From positions 1 through 24,921 of the forward strand of contig AJFK01000306.1 in the NCBI GenBank assembly GCA_000467715.1: a DNA stretch of 24,921 nucleotides. The letters are read 5' to 3'. The translations under genes were made by a program, and so were the position numbers. The notes under the pieces are model-generated. The model did not search any database. It saw nothing but the letters and a program-made list of their open reading frames with translations, and was not told the origin of the DNA. How positions within the stretch are numbered: position 1 is the stretch's first letter; each line of letters begins with the position of its first letter. Of the stretch, positions 2,719 through 24,715 are shown piece by piece. This DNA comes from Hysterium pulicare CBS 123377. Taxonomy: Eukaryota > Ascomycota > Dothideomycetes > Hysteriales > Hysteriaceae.

Positions 2719-4389
2719 TCATGTCTTACCGTCGCAGAATTGCACAACGGCCCACTTCCCACTCCATGCCCATTTCCGAGCGCCGCTGTCGCCACCACCT
2801 CCTTCAGTAGCTTTGATCCTTTCATCTTCACCTTTTGGCAATCCCACTACGACGTCGGCTTTGCAAGTGCGGAGGGCGAGGACACGAAGATCGGATTTAG
2901 GGCCAAGAGGACCTATTGCCTTTGCGAACGGAGTCGTTGCCGGCCACATCGCCTGCGAAAGTCAGTATACAATGAAAGTAATAGGTGGTAGCACTCACAT
3001 CACCAGTCAGCTTTCGATAATTGAGATCACCTTTAAATATGACCAGCTCGCTCTCTTTCAAATCCTCATACAAACTGGGTTCCGTGGCTGGTAATCGCCA
3101 GTAGCTTCCGCCTTCGGTCCAGAAGCGATTCGGGCGTAGAACGAGCTGGCCTTCTGAGTGGAGATAGCTCCAGTTTTCGAAGAGGAATTTTAAGTTCGAC
3201 ACCTCGGTTTCAGAGAGCGGTGTTGGCGTTTTGCCGGTATGCTTATCATCCTCTGATATCGTTGTGTAGAAAGTCTGAGGATCCGCAAGCGCTGAGATGA
3301 GGGAGGCAAAGTCGTTCGGCAGGACATCCGACACGAACCAAGGAATAGACTTTGGATGCAGGACAATGGTTGTCGCGAGGCCGGCAGCGAGCAAGTATCC
3401 TGCCAAGATAAGGTCGACGAAGAGTTCGAAGCCTGCGTTATCAAGCACTATATCCACTCTCCTTTCCTTTTCCCCTGATTTCTGCGCTGTAGTAAGGATT
3501 TCGAAAGCCTTGCCCAAATCATTAACCAGAATGTTTTTCTCCGAAGCCTTCCGTGCTTCCGAACCTTGAAGCTTCTGAATATCCTCGTACGAGAGGTTCG
3601 TCAGAAGAGAAAGATCGGTAGCATTTCCCCAAAGACATATCTCGCACATTTCCATGAAGAGAATCTTCTCCGCTTCTACCAGTTCCTCTTGCGTCTTGGC
3701 GCCTTTAATTGTATGTTTTTGTTCGAGCTCGGTGACTATGTCTCTGTATTTAGCGGCGAGTTCGAGGACGGCGGGGCGGGAGGAACGGAAAGTGGACATC
3801 TTTTGGCGTGCGAAGAGGTCGTAGGACTTCCATTTCTTAGACAGGGCGAAGATTGTGGAGATACGTCTGGCTTGGTGTTATTATCAGCATAGTAATTGAC
3901 TGATGGACGAGTCTACGAAGGGCATACCTGTATAAGTAACATTCGGAGTATAGCCATGGGACTTCGAACCATTTCGGGCTTCCTAACGCCTCGAGCTCTT
4001 TGTTATAGCCTGCGATGTCTGGTTGGCCGTCATCAGATAGTGGACTTCATAGCTATTACTTAGCGACTCATTCAACATAATGGGGAGATCAACACATACG
4101 TCATTTGCCTATCATGCTGAAGCTCATATTTCAGCTTCGCCAGCTCCGACACGATTTCTTTTCCCTCCCTTTCCGTTTCCGAGTCCTTGATGGCCCATGT
4201 TGAACGATGAACATCGTCAATTCCTTGTGTCTAGCATGCTCAAATCAGCCATTTCATCTCATTGATCTCGAGATAGACGTGGATTGTGGGCTGGCATACA
4301 AGGATAACAGGCCATCGGTCTCGGGCGGAGATGTATGCGAATGACGTCTTGTCGGACGTGCTATAAGGCACTGTGAAATCGCTCAGCAT
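2719..4389 (-). CDS. DUF89/ARMT1-type damage-control phosphatase
   Basis: Five exons (4300-4389, 4100-4230, 3928-4044, 2999-3866, 2719-2952) separated by introns of 69, 55, 61 and 46 bp, all GT-AG with matching phase, give 479 residues, normal for the family. DUF89 proteins are metal-dependent phosphatases that hydrolyse sugar phosphates and related damaged metabolites. The human relative ARMT1 was also reported to methylate carboxylates. Seen here: the N-terminal SFAYISARDRWPVIL, GIDDVHR, a WGNATDLSLL metal-site segment (residues about 192-201), the signature LDNAGFELFVDL (about 254-265), KGDLNYRKLTGD (391-402), then MWPATTPFA, LRTCKADVVVGL and the C-terminal GKWAVVQFCDGK. The Asp-Asn of the LDNAG motif and the Asp of KGD match metal ligands known in the family. 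The start at 4389 gives the usual length. An in-frame ATG at 4452 would add 21 residues but lies in a likely leader intron context. Confidence 0.9.
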
Positions 4390-4452
4390 CCTATGTTTGA
4401 AAAGGTATTCAGGAGATGAACAGTGCTTACGTGTCTTGGTGTCGTGCTCCAT
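4383..4452 (-). promoter_or_regulatory. Possible spliced uORF overlapping the DUF89 start
   Basis: An ATG at 4450-4452 lies upstream of the main ATG at 4387-4389. Between them is a plausible 40-bp leader intron (4391-4430; GTAAGC donor, CTGAAT-like branch, CATAG acceptor). If it is spliced, the upstream ATG opens a nine-codon reading frame whose TGA (4383-4385) overlaps the start region of the main frame, a layout that would favour termination and reinitiation. If it is not spliced, the upstream ATG is in frame and adds 21 residues. The sequence alone cannot decide. Confidence 0.35.
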
Positions 4453-5256: not shown

Positions 5257-7438
5257 TCATTCAAGAACCAACGGCTTCCGACCGGGCGAAGGCCGTCCCA
5301 TAGATCTCGAAATATTCTCCGACGCGAAAAGATTTCCATCGTCCAACTTTGCAGCCAAAGCCTCCGAAAGCCCGCTCGTCGTAAACAGGACCTTGAGAGA
5401 ACAGTTCCCTTTCTGAGATCCAAGCTTTACCCGATCTTGCAATAGTGAGGTTAATTCTTCCAGGTATTTATGCGTACTCCAATTACTGTGATCATCCAAC
5501 CACTGCAGCCCGTCCACCACGATGAACAAGATCGGTTGATCAGCAAAGTCAAGCAGATCTGCAAATAACGATAGAGCTTGCGACCAGGACCGAAGGGTTC
5601 CGTCTAACTCTTCAAACCGACTGACTCCGAGGCTCGGCTCTGGTTCTTTAAAGCTCACAGGGATGAGCTCAGTCAGCTGTCTTATAAGAGCATACATCAA
5701 AGCGATAAGCCCAACCGTCTCCCTACACCTTCCCTCGGGTGGATCTTCATGGGATAGCGAGCAGAAGAAAGATACAACGGGAAGTTTTGCCTCTCCAAGT
5801 AGACAGCACAGTTGTGCCGCGACAAGAGAAGTCGCAGATTCTTCCCGGAGATCGCTTGGGCCGACAAAATTCAGGATGCTGGAACCAGTTTCTCCTGCTG
5901 TCCATTCCTGTAACCTGGCGGCTACAGTTTCTTCAGTAAAGAAGAAATTAGATGATGCGGGCCGGATCATGACTCGATTACTATCGAAATAGTCGTCTAG
6001 ATCTTTCGAATTATATTGGACTTCGGTGCGGAATTGCGGGTTGTCGACTACACGAGCTTTAGACTTTGAGGCATTGACGTACTTGATAACATACCAGCAT
6101 TTGATTGCGGAGTTGCCGAACTAGCGCCCCACGAGAGTCTCGCAGGGCTCGCGTCTGCAAAGAATTAGCAACTTCTCCAGTCCATACATAATACGTTTCT
6201 TACTACTTCTCGACCCCTGCTCCTCCAAAAACTTCTGCGCACGCTGTTCCAACAGCTCATTCAACGCGGACCCAATTATGTCGGTCCTCACGCCCGCCCA
6301 GAACTGCCCCATCAATTCTAACATGTTACTCTTATTCTCCCTCAGCATCTTCTTCCTTTCCTCCTCCATAAACTCCGCCATAAACCGTCTTCTTTCTTCC
6401 TCTCTCCTCTGTCGATCCGAAACATCATGTCGCTGCAAATCAATCAAAAACTGGACGTTCTCATCGACGTTCTCCGTCACCATACGCGTGACTCGAACTT
6501 CGGCGGACAATCCTAGATTTGCGGCACGATTGACTTCTTTCGAAAGCCTTTGAATCTCGGCTATATCTTTCTGGAAAACTTCATAGAGGTTCTGGTTGAA
6601 GGACCAGCGAAATCGATTACGAGACCTTTCCGTGTACCATTTCAAGAAGCCGGTGAGTACAGTGAAGATTTGTGTGTAGAGACGAGCGGCTAATTGACGG
6701 ACTTCGGGGCTCTTATAGAGCCAGACTTCTTTCTCGACGAGGGAGACGGCGTCGTTGATATCTATTAGACAGAGAGAAAATGCTTCGCTGAGTTGCGAGT
6801 AATTCACCGATGCCTGATGCTGTGGTAAGATGGAGTTCTTCGAATGATTTAACTACGCAGCATACCTTCATTAAAGTCTCCAATGCGCCGCAGAACAAGG
6901 AGACATACTCGCTTTCTCTCGGTAGCATTTTCATTGCATTAGAATGCCCATCCAAAGTCCGGGCACAACGATGGAAATATTTCTTCGCTTTGCCGAATTT
7001 GCTACTATCTCGTTGTAGTTCCCATTCCTGCCGCGCATCTTCAACTGCTTTGAGGACATCTCCCATGCTACATTTCTTAGATCCAAAGCATCCTCTTTGC
7101 TTCTCAGGTAGCGTATTCTGGAAAGCAACAAGAGCATCGCTTAGCTCTTTCTGGCGCAACTCCAATTCATTGAATTGGGCGTATCTGGAAGCTGTCAACA
7201 TTCAACCCATCCCAATCCATCGGATCTAGATATGTGAAACTTACTCGGACGAAGTAAAATACGATCTCAGGTTGGCCAAAACTTGTTCTCTTCTCTCATC
7301 GCCCCTCCTCCTATGCTCAATCAGCGCCCGCTCATGGTCCTCGCTTGGCTGATCCGCCGGCCGATTCGCGATCTCATCTTCCAGCTCAAAAGTATATCTG
7401 CGCACCAGACCGCCCGATATTATACTATCATCATCCAT
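5257..7438 (-). CDS. Fungal STAND-like protein with degenerate P-loop
   Basis: Five exons (7245-7438, 6866-7184, 6204-6813, 6095-6154, 5257-6047) joined over 60-, 52-, 49- and 47-bp introns give 657 residues. The N-terminal half is helical and charged (EYAQFNELELRQKELSDAL; a MLPRESEYVSLFCGALETL segment) and resembles the helical domain that precedes NACHT-type modules in many fungal proteins (DUF7708-like, by memory). A long Arg/Glu-rich coiled coil follows (RQRREEERRRFMAEFMEEER). The C-terminal third (from about residue 421) has the order of a P-loop NTPase: RPASSNFFFTEETVAARL, then ILNFVGPSDLREESATSLV where Walker A should be, VVSFFCSL, and a good Walker-B-like strand PILFIVVDGLQWLDD (about 566-580). 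The Walker A Gly-Lys-Thr/Ser core is missing (GPSDLREESATS, 457-468), so nucleotide binding is doubtful. No C-terminal repeats are seen. The 60-base exon 4 is the least certain part. Confidence 0.7.
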
Positions 7439-7780
7439 CTTTCATGACTGGAGGTTGCAAGCAATGAGGCTCTGGTATTCTCGATGGAATTCCTTTTTAT
7501 AGATGGCCGGAGCTGTTGCCTGCCACCTGCAGCCACATGCAGGCGACGTTGATCGTAACCAATGAGACGTAGTAGCGCATCGCCAGCTACTCGGGCCCCA
7601 GACCCCAGAGGGCGGCCTGGTGTTGGCGTCACCTTTTGGCCCCCATCCTAAACCCTCCACCATGGCACTCAAGAATCACATAAAGGCAGCGTCGTGTCGC
7701 GGTCGCAATATTTCTGCCCTCCGAGGGTTCCATCTCAGCCTTGTGGCCTGCCTTCACGACAACGCGATCCGGAATCGAGA
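7439..7780. promoter_or_regulatory. Shared divergent promoter of the STAND-like and AAA+ genes
   Basis: Only 342 bp separate the start codons of two genes that point away from each other. A CCAAT box lies at 7559-7563, near the middle, and could serve either direction through the fungal CCAAT-binding complex (inference). A strong-context ATG at 7662 (ccaccATGGc) opens a 59-codon plus-strand frame that runs out of phase through the AAA+ start at 7781 and stops at 7841. If the AAA+ transcript starts upstream of 7662, this would act as an inhibitory uORF. Confidence 0.5.
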
Positions 7781-10700
7781 ATGGCTCACGGCGATGCCAC
7801 AGGGGCTCTGGAAGGCCCTGAAGACGGCAAGGAAGATTTAATCCGTGAGGCCAATGATGCCGTTGATGCGCCATCTGCTGCGGATGCTCCTAGTGAGAGC
7901 GTAAACGTCTCTGAACATCCTGGAGAAGGTCCTCCGACGACTCAGACTGAGCCTTCATCTTTGAATGATGTTCCTGCTTCCGCCGATTCTTCCGACGAAC
8001 AGCACGCCTCTAAACACAACGAAAAGCCAAACGGTGAAAGTAAAAAGGAGAGAAGTCAAAATACTGAAGATCAACCGGAGTCCGGGACTGAGGATGGTCC
8101 CAAGCAAAGCGACGAAAAGGACGGATATGAGAGTGAAGCATCCAGTACAAACCGGTCCGAGTGGTCAGAGCCTTCACGGCGTTCAAACCATCACAATGAA
8201 TGCTGTTGCTGCTGCGAGATACGAAAGAGCGACAGACACTTTAGACCATATCGTGGGCCCATGCCACCCCCAGGTCCTCGTCCCATGCCTCCAATGCCTC
8301 CAATGCCTCCAATGCCTCCAATGCCTCCATCGCCAATTATTATCCGGGATTTGTCACCTCCACCCGCAGCGCGAATCGTCAAAAAGGTTGAATATCGATA
8401 CGTGCAAACGCACGACATCGTCTGTCAAATCCCCATGCACGAATCTACAGCCTACAAGATTGACCGCGTTAAGCCCATTTTGGAATATGTCGATGTGCGA
8501 TTCACTTCGCGAAAGGAGTATCTCGTTCCAATGGACAAGGCAGCAAAGGCAGAAGATCCTCCCATGGTAGTTACGGGGAACCCTTATATGCGTATCCATT
8601 CACCGTGCGTCATCAATGCACTGCGACGTGTTGTCGACTATTATCCGGACCTGAGCTTGTCCGCCGAGACGATTGTAATGTACGAGCCATTTCCAATGCT
8701 GGTGCATTTCGAGAAAGAATTGGCGGCGTTCCGGGAGCTCTATGCGCCTAAAGAAGACGAAGAGCCACCGAAAGATTGTCGGAACCAAGATACGTATGAG
8801 CATCTGAAAGTGCTTCAAGGATTCATGGACGAAAAGGTTAAAGCCTCGGTGGAAGCCGAGAGAGCGCGCTACAAGCGTGAACGTCCCGTAGCCACATGGG
8901 CGATGCTATGGCTCTTATTTCCTCCCGGAGTAGACGTTTACGTCGACTACGATGATGACGGTGTTCTGCAGCCTTGCGTTGTCAAAGGACTGGATTTCTC
9001 GCTGAGAGACGGAGTCCCTGAGACATACGTTATTTCCTTTTGGTATATGAATTCGAAAGACAAGAATCTGGGTCCCCATGAGCAATTATTCTCCATGCCG
9101 AAGTTCGAGGGAGAGAAGGAAATTGCTTCGCTACGGGTATTTCCTTGCGAATTTGCGCGGGAAGACGTGAATGGGAAGAGTGCTGAAATGATGAGAGAGC
9201 ATTTCGTCGAAAGAGGGAAACGGTATGTCAGATTGCAGAAGATGAGGTGCATGTGGTTCAACGGCACACATGGAAAGCGACGAGTGAGATTTTCCCAAGG
9301 GCTTATCTTTGCCCACAGAGCAATATGTTAACCACGTCAACCAGTACAACGGACTCACCATGGTCGATGCCGAGAATTATCCTATAGGCGGCCCTCGAGA
9401 TCCTCCGTCCCGATCACGGTCACCACCACCACCGCCGCCTCCCCCAATGTTTCCTATGGAGCCTTTGGTGCAAGCACCAGCTGTTCACGACGTGGAAAGA
9501 ACCCCTGGAGGTATATACAATTGTGAATGTGAACGGTGTCTGGGAATTGGCGAACGCTTGAACATCAGACCCAAGTTCGCAGGATATTCTAGGATCAACC
9601 CTCTAAGAGCTGGGCCACTTACCGATCATAAGTATTTTCTCTGTGACAGCAAAATCAGGACGTTCATGTTCAAAAATAGAGAGTGGGGTAAGTCTAGTGT
9701 TGAGAGGTTAACGCTGAGAGCACTAATGATCAAACAGGTCAACTCGATGTGAACGGCTTTGAAGAGCCAACGTTTGATGCATCTCTGATTGATGATTTGG
9801 TTATTCCAAATGATACCAAGGACTTGATCAAGGAGCTTACAAAGATGTACATCCACAGTGCTTCAGAAGAAAACGCCTCGACTGCCTGGTCTGCCGACTT
9901 CGTAGAAGGTAAAGGCGAAGGCTTGATCTTCCTACTCCATGGCAAACCCGGCGTTGGCAAAACCTATACTGCGGGTTAGTGAAGATTCTTCATTTTCCAC
10001 ACATTAAGCATTGCCAAACGCAGCTGACGAGACTCAGAATGTATATCCGAACATACCGGCCGACCCCTTCTCGCCCTCACGTCCGCAGATATCGGCACGA
10101 ACCCAACCCAAGTCGAGATAAATCTAAAGCACTGGTTCAACCTCGCTCATCTATGGGGCGCCATCATGCTCCTCGACGAAGCCGACATCTTCATGGAGCA
10201 CCGTCAAGTACAGGACTTAGAGCGTAACACTCTCGTCGCCGTGTTCCTACGAGCGATGGAGTACTACAAGGGGATCTTATTCCTGACGACGAATCGCGTA
10301 GGAACTTTCGACGAAGCCTTCATCTCGCGTATTCACGTCATGCTCTACTATCGCGACTTTACGGATGATGAAAGAGAGGAGCTGTGGGCGACTTTCTTCA
10401 AGAAGCTAGAGCGGGAGAGGGAGGATCAGATGCGTATACCGGTGTCGACCAAGGACTATGTCAATTCGAGAGAAGTTCGAGATCTCAAATGGAATGGGAG
10501 GGAGATTCGAAATGGTTTGTGCCTTTTGCATCCCACCCCCTTCTCCGACGAATTCACTAACATGTTATAGCCTTCCAAGTCGCCGTCGCTCTCGCCGAGT
10601 CAGAGGGCGATAAAGACAAGAACGGGCGCGTGTTGGTCAAGATGGAGCATATCAAGTCCACAGTCCGCACGTCGAAGTCATTCAAGAGTTATCTGCAGCG

Positions 10701-10812
10701 CTTGTACAAGAAAGATGAGAGTCAGCGCGCGGCGATTATGGGACATCGATATGATGCGTTCGATGAGAAGGATGCCAAGAATGCCAGCGCAAGTAGCTCG
10801 CAGCTGATTTGA
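7781..10812 (+). CDS. Fungal AAA+ ATPase with proline-rich, cysteine-run N-terminus
   Basis: Five exons (7781-9283, 9345-9687, 9738-9974, 10038-10514, 10571-10812) give 933 residues. The first intron (61 bp) has an alternative acceptor at 9321 in the same phase; the other introns are clear. Order: an acidic Ser/Glu-rich leader; five cysteines in a row (141-145); a PPMPPM repeat (169-183); an N-terminal domain of the kind that precedes the ATPase in large fungal AAA proteins (DUF7025-like, from memory), with LLFPPGVDVYVDYDDDG; a polyproline stretch; a NCECERC cluster; then the AAA module. Walker A is GKPGVGKT (684-691), Walker B IMLLDEADIF (Asp741-Glu742) and sensor 1 LTTNR (Asn780). The lid segment holds GREIRNAFQVAVALAE. 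All core catalytic residues are present, so it should hydrolyse ATP. Substrate and localisation are unknown; relatives of this class are abundant and mostly uncharacterised in Pezizomycotina. ATG 7781 is the first in frame. Confidence 0.88.
8285..8329 (+). repeat. Five 9-bp tandem repeats encoding Met-Pro-Pro
   Basis: Five perfect copies of ATGCCTCCA lie inside the AAA+ coding region and encode (Met-Pro-Pro)5. Being a multiple of three, copy-number change keeps the frame, so length differences between strains would be expected. Confidence 0.9.
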
Positions 10813-11426: not shown

Positions 11427-13154
11427 TTAACCCTTACCATTAGAATCTATTATAGTGCTTGAGTTTATGCTATTACACTCTGTAGGGGTATCCGCATAGT
11501 TGACTGTGAATGACGACGATAACGATGTCGAGAGCGACGGACACAACTCTAAACGAGGTGGCTTATCGTCAGGGTTTTTGGGATAATAATCATCGAAGAG
11601 ATTTTTGAAGTTTCGGGCCTCTGAAGAGTATATGAGTGTTCGGTTCTGTCGAGATGCATGATTTTCTCACAAATGAAATAGGAACATCTCACGTACCAGC
11701 GGCGTCTACAAATTTGATCAACGCGCCTCGAACAGCAGAATCCGGGTATAAGGGGCACAAGTTAAGCGTTCTGGGTTTTCTAGCCGCGATAAATGTCGGG
11801 TTCGGTCTGAAATCTTCTATGTGCCACTCCAAATGTGAGTTACGATCCCCCACACGCGTAGCTAGAAATGTGATAGTAACGTCAGGTCGAGTTCTGGGTG
11901 CGGGTTTGCTCCAGAGTCGGAGAACCTGGCAATTAGTAAGGCACCGGTTTTCGGAAGATACATTGACGGCTTCGAACTCCCCAAGAAGTATTCGTTCGCG
12001 TGCGATATTCTGAAACTTTCTCCGAGCCTCCAGAGTTTTGAACTTGTACCTTGGTCGATACACATGGTATAAATGATGGCCGTCACTGTTGATGACAGTT
12101 ATAGTATGGGACGTAAGGAATCGTACTTCAAGCGAATCCTTGTCGTCTGTGAATGGGATCGAGCCAAAAGGCACTGGCATACGGTTAACACTTAGTCGAG
12201 AAAACAAGAAAAAAAGTGTTTGTATACCTAGGTGTTTTACGCGGATCGACTCATCGTGGTTTCGAAAGTGAAGGACCCTGGTTTTCTCATCCCGGGTCAT
12301 GATTTGTACTTCCTTTAGCTTTAGTACTCTATGCAACCCGGAAACATTGTCTAGAATACTAATGAATATATGTTAGGTGACAGTAATGAATTAGGGAGAC
12401 AAGTCAGGTCGATGCGTACAGTGTCGTGAGAACATCGTCGAATTCCTCGTTGTCCATGACTATGGGATCGTCCAGAATTCGGTTGATTGCCACACCCAGA
12501 ATTGTCGTGTATTCCCACACTTTCTGATCGACCTCTCGAAGTTTTTGTTCAGGTATGGGGTCTTGAGTATTAATAGTATTATGATGCTGGGTCTCTAAGG
12601 ATAGACCCTCGATTTCAGTTGCTGAAGCCGTGATGTCATGTGTAAGGCTGTCATTTCTAACCGTGTTACTACGCTGCCTCGCGCTAATTGAATATCAGTT
12701 TCTCGCCCGTGATTCCGCTCAGTATCACTTACCTGATCAATCGCAGCCAAACTGAGTGTATGGTATGGACATAAATTCGGTCGATCTGTTCCCTGTATCC
12801 GTCCAGTTCGTGACCGCTCGTAAAGGACCAGAAGGCACGACGGACACCTCCAATTGTCCCCTGACTCTTGAGCGTAGTTTCGTATTTGCTTAACAACGCC
12901 TCGCACGCTTTCAGAGTTTGAAGTATTTCCTCGTGATCTGCAGTGGGAATATGGATCGATCCATGGCATTTGACCTCCTCTCGGAGGCATTCGAAATTGA
13001 ACTCGAGTCGAGACACCGATTTTCTAAAGTTTCGTATGTGCCTTGGTGCGTTATGAAGCCGATCGAATAACTTGCTAACCTTGTCCACGGTCTCTATGAC
13101 TTGGAGGACTATACTGGTGATAGCTAAAATTTCGCCGACGCCGAGCAGGGTCAT
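11427..13154 (-). CDS. Helo-like / fungal STAND N-terminal domain protein
   Basis: Five exons (12733-13154, 12420-12683, 12228-12358, 11697-12173, 11427-11620) over introns of 49, 61, 54 and 76 bp give 495 residues. The first 140 residues start MTLLGVGEILAITSIVLQVI and continue through KVSKLFDRLHNAPRHIRNF and LEFNFECLREEV. This is the amphipathic helical pattern of the Helo-like/fungal STAND N-terminal domain, which in some proteins forms membrane-active assemblies in incompatibility. No P-loop follows. Instead there is a linker (VDQKVWEYTTILGVAINRIL) and a C-terminal module with LEVRFLTSHTITVINSDG, YKFKTLEARRKFQNIARE and ALIKFVDAAEARNFKNLFDD. The last looks like the closing strand-helix of a PH-like fold (inference). 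The tail is Ser/Thr-rich. The 54-bp third intron is a multiple of three without in-frame stops, so it may be retained. The ATG at 13154 is the first in frame. Confidence 0.75.
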
Positions 13155-13757: not shown

Positions 13758-15977
13758 ATGCCGAATCACCGTCGCTCTGGAATCCCTCGGAGGCTACCTT
13801 GGAAATGGAATGGCGTTGAAGATGCCAACTATGAACAACCTGGACCTAGGGTGAGTTGAAGGCGGCTTTCAAGTAGCTATATGATGCGCTAACTTGCGGA
13901 CCAGAGAATGAGGCGAATGGTAAAAATCATTGATAGTGGTGGGTTTAATAAAATAGTGTTCTTTGTCGCTTCTTCAGGCTTCCTGGCATCGTCCTATGGA
14001 CTGTTTGCAACCAACGTCATCAAGCCGGCACTCTATTATGTCTACCCACCCTGTGGACGACTCAATTCAAGTGCAGGAGTGGTCATTGACCAGCTCACCC
14101 TTATTGGCACGGCGCTCGGTATGCTGGTCGCCGGTCATTTCGCCGACCTCTGGGGTCGCAAGAAGCTATACGGCTTTGAGCTCGCCATTTTGGTCATCGC
14201 CACACTGGGGGTCGTGCAGGCGTCGGAGGGGTTCCAGTCCCAGAACCCAGATGGCACGTATAAAGGCACCATGAATATATATGCTTGGATATCATGGTGG
14301 CGCTCTATACTCGGCATTGGAATTGGAGCTGAGGAAAGAAGAGCTATCTGCAGATAGATGCACGGTATGCTAACTTACTTTGCAGTACCCACTGTCCTCC
14401 ATCATAGCAGCAGAGTGGACGTCCACCAAATCCAGGGGGAAGATGCTTGCGGCGGTTTTCTCCATGCAGGCTGTTGCTAGGCTACTGGCTTTCGGGATAT
14501 GCCTCGCGGCACTGCACGTCATAAGCAGTCGGAATGAGATTTCGCCTGACATTCTTGAAGACAACTCCGTTAAGATGAAGCGAGTTGTTGATCAAGTCTG
14601 GAGATGGGTGACTGGAGTGGCAATCATTCCGGCCGCATTAGCTATTGTCCTCCGACTCACCATTCCTGAAACACCGAGGTACTATGCCGATATACGGAAA
14701 GACATAGCCAAAGCAATCAAGAAGGCTTTGCAGGTGTATGGGCAGCAGGGACTAGAAGACGAGCCAGTTGATGAATCTGACGAGTCTGACGCAATTTCTC
14801 AGCATGATAGCGACAGCATAGAGGAGGATGAGCACTGGTATAGAAGCGCTTGGAAATACCTTAGGACAACCATGGCTGGGAGGCATCTTGTTGTGATTTC
14901 TGGCCTCTGGGCGATCATGGATATTGGCTGGTATGGTCTTTCCATGGATAGTCCCAGCGCTCTGTCAACACTCTGGCACGATCCTTCCACTCCACTCATC
15001 AAGTCGCCATCTACAGATACTAGGAGATCAGCTGAGAGCATTTGCCCCGAATTCAATAGCTGGAGAACTGATTCCAACCCCAACATAACGATCTATCGAA
15101 TGCTCGAGAAAAACTCCGTTCGTTCGATGCTGGTTGTCTCCATTGGCTCCTTGCTTGGCAACATAGCTCTTATCGTTATCATCGACCGGTTCCACAGGAA
15201 GAGGATTTTAATAACGACATTTTGCCTACTCGGCTTGCTCTTTGCTATCATAGGAGGAAGTCTAATCGGAACATATCGAGCCGGTCACAACCACCTCGTA
15301 GCTACTGTCTTTTTGGGCATCATACATTTCTTGTTTACCATAGGCCCCAAAACATTGATACTTGTCATAGCAGTCGAGATGTTCCCTACTATCTATCGAG
15401 GCACTTTCTACGGAATCGCTGCTGCAACGGGCAAAGTTGGTGCTATTATTATCCGAGCTATCATCGGAGGGACTGGAAATGGTGAGATGGCACTTGGCCT
15501 CAGACTACTTGCTGTCATACCGCTGATGGTGCTGGGGGCGTGGATGTCTTGCATGCTTCCGGACGTGCAGCATGTTCGAGAAGTAAGTGATGCTGAAGCT
15601 GCAGTGAAAGATTCGTCAGTTGTGAAAAGAAAGAATCAGTCAGAGGTTAGGGATGGCAGTAGCGATGAACACCAACCGAAGCCAGATGAAGACGGCAGAG
15701 AAAAGCAAGGGACGTCTCTTCGAAGAGTTCGCTTCTTCCAGCAACTCCAAAACATGACACTTGAAGAAATTGCGCCGAGTCCGGCACTGGGTCTCGTAAG
15801 TTCTATTCAGGGAAGGGGGCGATGAAGAAGGCACCGATGATCATGCTGAATCTCTAGTTGGAAGGCTGGATTAGCGGTGTGGAGTCTGTCATTGTGATCT
15901 GGACGCCGGCATATATGCAGCTGATACGGATGTGGGAGAGTGGCGGAATTGATAGCTCGATGACATCCGAAAGATGA
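13758..15977 (+). CDS. MFS transporter, phosphate:H+ symporter (Pho84/PHS) type, with a mutated splice donor
   Basis: Four exons (13758-13850, 13905-14333, 14386-15795, 15858-15977) would give 683 residues in one continuous frame. Known of the family: 12-TM plasma-membrane H+ symporters for phosphate or related anions. Seen: the MFS loop signature GHFADLWGRKK after TM2, GIGIGAE|YPLSSIIAAEW (the PHS signature, split by intron 2), IPETPRYYADIRKD, a large acidic loop (DEPVDESDESDAISQHDSDS), and GPKTLILVIAVEMFPTIYRG with GKVGAII in the C-half, as in Pho84 relatives. Intron 2 (14334-14385) keeps its branch (GCTAAC) and TTTGCAG acceptor, but its donor reads GAAAGA instead of GTAAGA. Without splicing, translation stops at 14355-14357 after 181 residues, so the gene is dead unless GA-AG splicing works. 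The last exon is less certain; ending in the unspliced frame at 15825 is possible. Confidence 0.8.
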
Positions 15978-18169: not shown

Positions 18170-19843
18170 ATGTCTCCAACTCCTTCCGCCAGCCACCCGA
18201 TACTATCCCACCAGCCTGAAGCCGGCACCTTGGCCTTCACGACGACATTACCATCGATCTCAAGGACCTTCCTTTCTACTCAAGAGCAGTCTCCTCTATT
18301 TCGGATCCCCCGGGAACTTCGCGACGGAATTTATGGCTACTATGTCGCACAAGAGCATGGGTACCATTACAACCCCGAATCCGGCAAGTTGCGGGGTTCC
18401 GATGACAGCCCCGTTGACCTTGCCTTGATGTATACCTGCAAAGGTATAGCGGAGGAAATGATGGGGGTTGCTCTCGAGGCAAACGATATCACTTTCACAA
18501 CAGCTTATTCGGAGCAGGATCTGCAGAATGATCGTGACATCCGGTCGAAAGCAGGTCGCTTCTCTCGTCTTATAGCTGGATCGATGAGGGCCCATGGCGC
18601 TATGTTTGAGCATGCCGCTGAATGCGTCACGCCAGACATAGTGGAGAAAGTTGCCCAACGGTACCCAGGCAACGACTTTAGTGAAACAATCCAGGACCGT
18701 TTGGATGGACGGGTATTTAAAACGGCAGGGCTCTGGGGACCGGTAACCGGAGGAATCTCGGTTCATCGCGATGCTCTTCGTTACACTCTACAGCTCGCCT
18801 CAACTCATCCTGAGTTTGATGTTTTGGCTTCAGAAGGATGTCGTCCCAGCCCTTGGACATCGCAACCAGGTCACGATGACATCTTCATCGAAGGAGCCCA
18901 TACGAAGGTGCTTGCGTGGTACCCTCTACCGTGGTCAATTCCTAGCGAGACTGAGCTCGACTCAGTGGAAGACCTTACCTGCCGTAAGCAGCTCACACCC
19001 CCCTGTGAAGTCGACGCACCTCGTATGGGTGAACATGAGCACCGGTTGAAATTTTACTTCTCGGCAACTGCTGTAACAATAAGTTTCCTTCAACATCTCA
19101 CGAGCAACACACGCCTGCATATGCGAAGAATTACAATCAGAGAAGACCGCAAAAGCGTCGCTTTCCCTGAATCCCACGCACGAGGTCTCATTCCGTTCTG
19201 TCTAGAGAATCGAAATCTCCGCATCGAAAGGCGTGTAGACATCTGGAGGACTGTCTTTCCATTAGAATGGAGCTATATGACCTACGCTGAACTTACACCA
19301 GGCACAGGCTGGAACACAATACTTAAACATATGGCTCGGACCAAAATGCAAGATTGGTTAGATGAAGTAATGAGCTTAGTCCCGCATGGAATGCCAGCTA
19401 AATCTTTTTCACTGGTCTTCGAGGGGCCACCAGACTCAACACAGCAGGTATGGGACTTGCTGAAGCACGCCGCGGCTCTGCAAGAGGCAATGCTTGAATG
19501 CCATCGGCGAGGGTGCCTACCTAGCGACAGTTTATACCGTATTGAACGGTATGAACCCCGGACACGCCACGTTTCGGAACAATTCCTGCAAGCGATTAAG
19601 GATATCATGCAAGGAAACTCGCTCGTTCGGTTCGAGGCTCATTTGGGAGAGCTTTGGGATACGGAGGAAATAATCAGGAAGCATGAAGGGTCATCCCCAG
19701 TGGACTGGAAAAGTGAGTGGCTAGAATTCTGCGATCAACTCGTTGATGATCCACCTGGTGGATATGCCGCTATCCTCGCCGAGTACCGCGAATCATTTCA
19801 GCCATCGTTAGTACGCACGGCTGTTCCCGTGGACCACACATAG
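18170..19843 (+). CDS. Hypothetical F-box-like fungal protein
   Basis: A single uninterrupted frame of 557 codons starts at the first ATG after a clear TATA box. Residues 43-59 (LFRIPRELRDGIYGYYV) match the short leucine/proline motif that opens F-box-like and related fungal domains (L-x-x-L/I-P-x-E-L/I-R-x-x-I/L-Y), and LALMYTCKGIAEEMM follows as in that group. The rest is a mixed helical protein with no catalytic motif that I recognise. Such proteins are numerous in Pezizomycotina and often vary between strains. Some may be substrate adaptors of SCF ubiquitin ligases, but without a canonical F-box this is only a possibility. Absence of introns contrasts with the intron-rich neighbours. The function is unknown. 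Confidence 0.8.
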   Translation: MSPTPSASHPILSHQPEAGTLAFTTTLPSISRTFLSTQEQSPLFRIPRELRDGIYGYYVAQEHGYHYNPESGKLRGSDDSPVDLALMYTCKGIAEEMMGVALEANDITFTTAYSEQDLQNDRDIRSKAGRFSRLIAGSMRAHGAMFEHAAECVTPDIVEKVAQRYPGNDFSETIQDRLDGRVFKTAGLWGPVTGGISVHRDALRYTLQLASTHPEFDVLASEGCRPSPWTSQPGHDDIFIEGAHTKVLAWYPLPWSIPSETELDSVEDLTCRKQLTPPCEVDAPRMGEHEHRLKFYFSATAVTISFLQHLTSNTRLHMRRITIREDRKSVAFPESHARGLIPFCLENRNLRIERRVDIWRTVFPLEWSYMTYAELTPGTGWNTILKHMARTKMQDWLDEVMSLVPHGMPAKSFSLVFEGPPDSTQQVWDLLKHAAALQEAMLECHRRGCLPSDSLYRIERYEPRTRHVSEQFLQAIKDIMQGNSLVRFEAHLGELWDTEEIIRKHEGSSPVDWKSEWLEFCDQLVDDPPGGYAAILAEYRESFQPSLVRTAVPVDHT

Positions 19844-22989: not shown

Positions 22990-24715
22990 TCATTTCTCGC
23001 GCACCCCAACATAACAAGGGTACCGATCCGCTGGATGCTGACCACCTCCACCGCCTGCAACCTGGTACGCTCGCTCCCCCAACGCCGTCTTCACCACTTT
23101 ATTAGGATGCAAGCGATCCCACTCCTCGTAGGCAGGTCTGACATTGAATTGACGGAGCGTTAGAATGAGAATAGTTTTAATCTCAATCATGGCTAGAGTC
23201 TGTCCAATGCAGTTGTGGGGTCCGATTTCAAACGTCCTCCAGGCTCCCTTGATTGGGTACAACGGGTCGTCAGGTCCAACCAGCCAGCGGTCAGGGATGT
23301 ATGAATCAGGCTCTGGCCAATAAGCAGCATTCCGGTGAAGGGCCTCGTGGACAATCCAGACCTGGCAATGCGCAGTGGGAAACTTCGTGCCATCTTCTGC
23401 TGTGAGAGTGATGTCTGGACTTCCCATGCGGATTCCTCCAGCGGGTGGGAACAAGCGTAGAGCCTCCTTGATAGCGGCAAGAGTAAGCGGTAATTGGTTT
23501 AGAAGGCTTGGGTCTTGCCTCAAGAGCATAGCTGTTGAGGAGATATCTGTCCCGAACACGGAGTCGTGTTCACCTCGGACCCTCATGAGGAAGTCTGAAT
23601 GCGTATGCAGAAGGTGAAGTGTATACGTGATTGCACTGGATGTTGTATCATGTCCAGCTACAAGAAACAGACGGAGCTGGGCTGTAGCATAACGCTTGAA
23701 GTCAGCATCCATGACTGCGGTTTCCTGCTTTGTATGCTCGGCGATGTAGGTATCCAGCGCCAAAGCAACGATGGATTTCACCTTGCGTCCTCGGTCGTCA
23801 AGTAGCTTAGATGAGTCCTCGAAGGCTCTGCGTTCGGCAAAACGCTTCTCCAATTGTGTATGTATGAAAGAGTCGAGATACTGGCCCCAAACCCAGACTT
23901 TGAGGAACCGAAGAGGGTTCCACCGCTTCAGAGGATTCGTTTCCTGTCCGAAGGTAACAATCTCGATCAGCGAGCGCATGGTGTATGGGAATCTGCTGTT
24001 CTTTGACTGATAGTTGAAATCAATGTCCCTAGAACTTATTATCAGTAGGAGGCATAGCGCAGATGTATTATACTTACAATCCAATGAGACCGATGACATC
24101 AATCGCCAGCCGAAGCGTGGCTTCTTCCAGCTGGAATAGTTGGCCGGTCTCTGCATGCTTTCGTAACTTCTCGCAGAAAACCTCTCCTTGATCGACGAGC
24201 TTCGGCACTTGTTCAAGCATGTACCCAGAGCTAAATCCCGGATTGAAGATAGAGCGCCAGCGCTTCCATGGGCCTTCGGGCATGGTGATGAGGTTCGGTC
24301 CACCGGTCATCTGCAAGAAGGCATCAAAGACATTTTTGGGTTTCTGAACCCAGGAGTGTCGCATGATTTGGTCGGCAGCAAACGGATTTGAGACAACCAA
24401 GACCGGAATGGTAAATGGCCAGAAGTCGAGATAGAACATGTGGTGGTCGGTGAAGGTACGAGCTATGCTCAACGCCGTATAGTTGAAGACTGCATCGGCT
24501 GGGAATTGGTCGAGGTACCCTTTTATGACGAGGAGATGGCCGAAGATCCAGCTGAATTGTGGCATCGGCTGGAAGAATTAGAATATAGCTTCTAAGACAA
24601 AGCGATCACAGACCTTGCGCTGCTGTTGCAAACGGCCAATAATTTTGCGACTTCGGTACGCTGCGACCACGAAATAGCTGATCACAGCTATGCCAATTGT
24701 AAATAGCAGAGACAT
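22990..24715 (-). CDS. Cytochrome P450 monooxygenase
   Basis: Three exons (24614-24715, 24078-24568, 22990-24028) with 45- and 49-bp introns give 543 residues, a normal length. The N-terminus is a membrane anchor (SLLFTIGIAVISYFVVAAY) with a basic RSRK stop, so it should sit in the ER membrane facing the cytosol. Seen: the I-helix AGHDTTSS (322-329), the K-helix Glu386-x-x-Arg389 (EALRLFPPAGG), a PDRWL region, and the heme loop FEIGPHNCIGQTLAMIE with the thiolate ligand Cys471. The CIGQ-x-(L/M)A heme loop is common in fungal P450s of the StcS/verB type used in polyketide pathways, but substrate cannot be read from it. The first donor is GTCTGT, weaker than the others. The gene is complete and all key residues are intact. 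No backbone synthase gene is in this window, so a link to a cluster is open. Confidence 0.93.

Follow-up and report, generated by a model that had tools for sequence, protein, structure and literature searches.

A divergent gene pair in Hysterium pulicare

The window analyzed here is the whole of contig C241 (AJFK01000306.1; 24,921 bp) in the 37.2-Mb assembly (596 contigs) of the fungus Hysterium pulicare CBS 123377, and all recurrence counts given below come from this one genome. The genes and introns seen in it have a fungal character. It was found that two large genes lie head-to-head in the window, the left gene running from 7438 to 5257 on the minus strand and the right gene from 7781 to 10812 on the plus strand. 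The left gene is predicted to encode a DUF7708 domain followed by a NACHT-type nucleoside triphosphatase (NTPase) domain that has lost its P-loop, and the right gene an AAA+ ATPase with a DUF7025 domain. The main features are as follows.

5257..7438, minus strand: left gene, DUF7708 plus pseudo-NACHT; predicted exons 7438-7245, 7184-6866, 6813-6195, 6154-6095 and 6047-5257; 660 aa
6499..6976, minus strand: DUF7708 helical domain, model residues 135-276, split by the intron 6865-6814 (whole-genome match, 6499-6813)
6121..6123, minus strand: in-frame TAG of the unspliced left open reading frame (ORF), within the short predicted exon 6154-6095 and read there in another phase
5260..6047, minus strand: pseudo-NACHT (NPHP3_N-like) domain; Walker B IVVDGL and a sensor-1-like strand kept, P-loop GK[ST] absent
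7439..7780: divergent intergenic region, 342 bp between the ATG at 7438 (minus) and the ATG at 7781 (plus); presumed shared promoter
7781..10812, plus strand: right gene, DUF7025-AAA-AAA_lid_13 ATPase; predicted exons 7781-9283, 9345-9687, 9738-9974, 10038-10514 and 10571-10812; 933 aa
8867..9157, plus strand: DUF7025 domain (Pfam)
9738..10713, plus strand: AAA core plus AAA_lid_13, with Walker A, Walker B, sensor 1 and the arginine of the second region of homology (SRH); interrupted by two introns

The original prediction, made from the DNA letters, had placed the two genes at the same coordinates around the same 342-bp region, and both start codons were confirmed. It had also described an NTPase-like C-terminal part with a Walker-B-like strand and no Walker A lysine in the left protein, and a complete AAA+ ATPase with Walker A, Walker B and sensor 1 in the right protein. 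Both descriptions held: the dead P-loop turned out to be common to the relatives of the left protein, and the right protein was found to have an arginine finger as well.

The left gene encodes a DUF7708 domain and a pseudo-NACHT domain

The N-terminal half of the left protein, which the original prediction had left unnamed, is DUF7708 (PF24809, E 1.9e-19, 70.4 bits against a cut-off of 25). In the C-terminal part, the P-loop region reads FVGPSDLREESATS, which contains no GK[ST] and does not fit the canonical Walker A GxxxxGK[ST]. The Walker B strand is IVVDGLQWLDD, and its aspartate (D179 of alignment A1) is kept in at least 90% of the 11 rows. Homology to the NACHT/NPHP3_N fold was found by aligning the family profile with two live NACHTs (hhalign Prob 96.7, alignment from the P-loop to sensor 1), and the structure model of the domain appears to resemble the ORC5/Cdc6 and NB-ARC folds. 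NPHP3_N matches nine of 11 family members at E<=1, and six of the nine scanned singly are above the cut-off. The window's own NTPase domain has no NPHP3_N match in Pfam and only a weak AAA_16 match. The left protein does not have the architecture of a complete nucleotide-binding oligomerization domain-like receptor (NLR); it stops about 40 aa past the sensor-1 strand, and its Pfam matches include no repeat family.

The left gene extends beyond the listed ORF at 5257-5970, which covers its 3′ part only. Two predicted introns with GT..AG borders, 6194-6155 (40 nt) and 6094-6048 (47 nt), bypass the TAG by shifting the reading frame of the short exon that they enclose; the product is then open over 660 aa. 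An alternative single intron of 147 nt across the same stretch is likewise open. The gene models of the relatives on contigs C4 and C238 also place an intron between the coiled coil and the NTPase. The left gene was recovered by profiles built without it (E 5.9e-13 and 3.1e-12).

The right gene encodes a DUF7025-AAA-AAA_lid_13 ATPase

All three domains of the right protein are above their Pfam cut-offs: DUF7025 (PF22942, E 5.3e-19, 68.8 bits), AAA (PF00004, 1.2e-14, 55.3) and AAA_lid_13 (PF23232, 1.2e-34, 119.2). Its motifs are Walker A GKPGVGKT, Walker B LLDEAD, sensor 1 TTN (in LTTNR) and the SRH arginine (SR). Across the 20 DUF7025-AAA genes of the genome, Walker A was read in 19 (in C354 it runs into an intron), the DE in 19 (in C8 it lies at an exon edge) and the SRH arginine in 20/20. 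Since the arginine finger is present in every one of them, the active site is complete without the partner, and the AAA protein appears from its residues to hold what a self-sufficient ring requires. The structure model of DUF7025 suggests only a weak SH3/Tudor-like resemblance.

An AAA relative with 44% identity and a 584-codon open frame was seen on three IMG/VR contigs filed as viral (L026, L027 and L028), the first two of which begin with identical 200 bases. It may be fungal contamination or a virus-borne copy.

The pair recurs in the genome

The genome has 20 DUF7025 genes (PF22942, 21 hits, one gene being split) and 18 DUF7708 loci at E<=1 (PF24809, 25 hits), of which C4 and C78 are below the Pfam cut-off. 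By Pfam alone, seven of the 18 DUF7708 loci have a DUF7025 gene no more than 5 kb away, against 0.097 expected (Poisson P 1.4e-11), a count that includes C4 and becomes 6/16 when only loci above the cut-off are taken. In this proximity test, neighbouring hits were merged, and 7000 was used as the edge of the window's DUF7708, which the gene model places at 6976. All seven pairs are divergent, and 1.9-2.4 kb separate the edges of their domains.

Six further partners were found with profiles. A profile of eight pseudo-NTPase domains found partners on C238, C347 and C307, on which it had not been trained (E 1.3e-17 to 3.2e-17); those on C286 and C1 were found with a three-sequence profile (E 0.016-0.029) and by eye, and the one on C180 with a 13-sequence profile. 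These six were excluded from the P value because they were sought only near DUF7025 genes. In the joined N-terminal parts, Pfam DUF7708 was above the cut-off for C180 (1.7e-8) and below it for C238 (2.2e-5), C1 (5.1e-5) and C307 (0.0095). In total, 13 of the 20 DUF7025-AAA genes have a DUF7708/NACHT-type partner, and all 13 pairs are head-to-head. When each locus was left out in turn, the profiles, run against open frames from the fetched loci, recovered the partner at 13/13 pair loci, with a best E at each of between 1.2e-9 and 4.9e-36. In six stretches around the seven unpaired genes, reaching only some 2.4-4.5 kb upstream from the frame that bears DUF7025, the same search gave no partner match at E<=1; a search with every filter turned off gave E 4.3 at best there.

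The original prediction had inferred the pairing of a dead protein of the signal transduction ATPases with numerous domains (STAND) type with a live AAA+ ATPase. This is now supported by the 13 divergent partners and by the correlated partner distances described below. The opposite expectation, that relatives of the two genes usually lie apart, fails within this genome, where 13 are together and the stretch seen around the other seven holds no partner. The loci without the other gene are as follows.

Seven unpaired DUF7025-AAA genes, no partner in the fetched stretch: C281, C244, C365 (two), C540 (108 kb), C590, C478
DUF7708 loci without a nearby DUF7025 gene: C139, C596, C485 (two), C481, C26, C372, C161, C309, C78, C538 (1 kb from the contig end)

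On C365, the two unpaired DUF7025-AAA genes are convergent within 4 kb. The genome's closest relative of the window's pseudo-NACHT, with 32% identity and broken frames, lies on C165 (L008, 3561-4391, minus strand). No DUF7025 hit was found on that contig, and the relative may be a remnant or an intron-rich solo gene.

The P-loop is lost in the partners, with one exception

A canonical P-loop is absent in 10/10 readable partners other than that of C180; the partners on C286 and C1 were read in the DUF7708 half only and are not among the ten. The C180 partner (L019, 6510-9999, plus strand) has DUF7708 (1.7e-8) and a strong NPHP3_N NACHT (E 5.5e-35) with ASAGFGKT, followed by a 536-codon open frame without a Pfam match. 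Its GFGKT, together with NPHP3_N and DUF7708, is suggestive of an NLR-type ancestor.

The partners diverged in correlation

Among the 13 pairs, the AAA proteins are 25-43% identical (mean, 33%), which means that the pair was duplicated long ago. At the DNA level, the loci resemble each other in short stretches only, most of them within the AAA core. Distances between the AAA proteins correlate with distances between their partners in Mantel tests (r 0.76, P 5e-5 for 13 pairs; r 0.755, P 1e-4 for 12 pairs), also without C1 and C286 (r 0.77, P 5e-5 for 10 pairs). The AAA and partner trees have four of nine bipartitions in common. On the AAA tree, the seven unpaired genes form one group, and the paired/unpaired state can be explained by one change, compared with a mean of 6.0 changes in shuffles (0/5000 as low). 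These results fit a pair whose two genes mostly duplicated and diverged together, with exchange or errors in the trees perhaps accounting for the rest.

Outside the AAA core, a short DNA stretch that is 69-76% alike is common to four pair loci (L015, 2192-2351; L016, 9702-9909; L022, 5918-6124; L024, 6711-6789). It has no Rfam match.

Neighbouring genes

The other genes of the window are as follows.

2897-4452, minus strand: ARMT1-like phosphatase gene (Pfam E 2e-65)
11689-13154, minus strand: Helo-like gene; only weak matches to SesA (E 0.11) and RPW8 (E 0.18) in the N-terminal part, none in the C-terminal part
13908-15825, plus strand: transporter-like gene (by eye)
18170-19843, plus strand: P450-like gene (by eye)
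22990-24565, minus strand: 557-aa ORF without a Pfam match at E<=0.01

The Helo-like gene had been taken as a member of an immunity island together with the pair. Its support is a weak SesA match, and no convincing relative was found near the other pairs (phmmer best E 0.021). In the stretches fetched for the other pairs, it is not part of the recurring unit. Of the original idea of a two-part system, the pairing, which recurs far beyond chance, stands, and the Helo-like island is not supported.

A proposed two-component unit and its alternatives

The explanation that I favour, at about even confidence, is that the gene pair is one co-inherited two-component unit and the locus one of a family multiplied in this fungus. 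That the pair is a functional unit is very probable. That the AAA+ protein acts on its pseudo-NACHT partner has an even chance, and an immune or allorecognition role is a tentative proposal held at less than even confidence; it is analogy alone that makes an incompatibility or immune role plausible.

The proposed mechanism is as follows. The shared divergent promoter would co-regulate both genes and keep their dosage matched. The pseudo-NACHT protein would be unable to switch via its own ATP binding and might be a client, sensor or adaptor that bears a signalling domain of NLR type at its N-terminus. DUF7708 occupies the position of the signalling domain in fungal NLRs and may be the output domain. 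The AAA+ protein, as an oligomeric ring, would bind and remodel the pseudo-NACHT partner and provide the ATP-driven switch that the partner has lost. If either partner were lost, or one were mismatched or modified by a foreign factor, a signal would be released, an NLR-like guard function in nonself recognition.

Several observations weigh against this reading. All 13 pairs are from one genome. The AAA family is not always in need of a partner, given that none was seen in the stretch around seven of the 20 DUF7025-AAA genes, and 11 of the 18 DUF7708 loci are more than 5 kb from any DUF7025 gene. The reading frame of the left gene hangs on predicted introns. Pfam DUF7708 was not found in C286 and C347, and the hit in C4 is below the cut-off. 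The C307 loop contains GKT, three residues late for a canonical P-loop. The Mantel test cannot separate co-adaptation from joint duplication, and the two trees disagree on five of the nine bipartitions: C71 groups with C354 in the partner tree (bootstrap 80) and with C540/C8 in the AAA tree (75), and C1 with C4 (67) instead of with C286/C307/C347 (99). The group of the seven unpaired genes has a bootstrap of only 56. No known cell-death domain was identified in the left or the right protein.

Is the pair a real functional unit that is not immune? The DUF7708/pseudo-NACHT protein might be a dedicated adaptor or substrate-selector through which an AAA+ remodelling machine takes part in some ordinary process, such as protein quality control or work on chromatin or organelles. 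This is unlikely, since 13 strongly diverged copies in one genome would be unusual for a housekeeping machine, and the partner's fold family is that of the fungal NLR NTPases.

The single change between the paired and unpaired states would also be seen if an ancestral divergent pair had been copied several times and kept together merely by its shared promoter, and joint duplication alone likewise predicts correlated partner distances. However, the one orientation of all 13 pairs and the conserved dead P-loop, despite 25-43% identity, suggest some constraint, and the loci are alike at the DNA level only over short segments, chiefly of the AAA core. Such passive linkage is thus improbable. Strict divergent linkage, correlated divergence and multiple copies could also mark a toxin-antidote or other selfish pair, in which one product is harmful and the other neutralizes it, so that separation is deadly and linkage is selected. 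However, the Pfam matches of both proteins include no toxin-like domain, both proteins are large and multi-domain, and unpaired AAA copies exist, which makes this very improbable. Least probable of all is that the window's left gene is a decaying pseudogene and the locus no longer a working pair, as the TAG at 6121-6123 of the unspliced frame might indicate, since the predicted introns give an open 660-aa product, the C4 and C238 models have an intron in the same part, and both halves of the protein are conserved.

The co-inherited two-component unit remains the explanation that I favour. If its partners cooperate, DUF7708 and DUF7025, both domains of unknown function, would gain a shared testable context. 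The broader proposal, that fungi hold a large overlooked class of two-component nonself-recognition loci in which a switch-less NLR-derived sensor stands permanently head-to-head with a dedicated switching AAA+ ATPase, is somewhat unlikely.

Comparison with known systems

The right protein of the window is a full member of the DUF7025-AAA-AAA_lid_13 ATPases (PF22942, PF00004, PF23232). Among the papers searched, none was found naming these domains or their Pfam numbers, and none describing the pair.

Torsin and LAP1 are an AAA+ protein and its pseudo-AAA cofactor; torsins are not known to have an arginine finger of their own and borrow one. The pair described here resembles them in combining a live AAA+ protein with a partner of related fold that has no nucleotide-binding motif. 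In contrast, the AAA+ protein here keeps its own SRH arginine in 20/20 genes.

The left protein is like the fungal NLR/STAND proteins with a NACHT (NPHP3_N, PF24883) in that its family matches NPHP3_N, aligns with live NACHTs and keeps Walker B. It is unlike them in that the P-loop of the window protein is lost, the protein ends soon past the NTPase core, and the N-terminal domain is DUF7708. Non-canonical P-loops in fungal NLRs have been noted before, according to the accessible part of PMC4986451.

In the available text of PMC3321046, the nwd2 and het-S genes are adjacent, with an orientation that differs between species and is divergent in Podospora. Such NLR-effector pairs are likewise adjacent fungal genes that include a STAND-type protein. 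However, as far as that text goes, the STAND-type protein there is paired with a HeLo cell-death effector, the two having an amyloid motif in common, whereas here the partner is an AAA+ ATPase and 13/13 pairs are divergent.

Plants are well known for immune receptors encoded as divergent pairs. The accessible portion of a 2025 survey of Sordariales by Bonometti and colleagues (PMC12258605) describes such pairs and reports 13 head-to-head pairs among 225 two-NLR clusters in the Sordariales and calls them rare; a pair is defined differently there, and the count is not directly comparable with the 13 pairs here. Like the head-to-head sensor/helper NLRs of plants as outlined there, the pair described here has two divergent genes, a shared intergenic region and one member that may be sensor-like. 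Unlike them, its second member is an AAA+ ATPase with DUF7025 and AAA_lid_13 and not an NLR, so that the two genes are not both NLRs. If the partners cooperate, the pair would represent a different solution for splitting sensing from ATP-driven switching.
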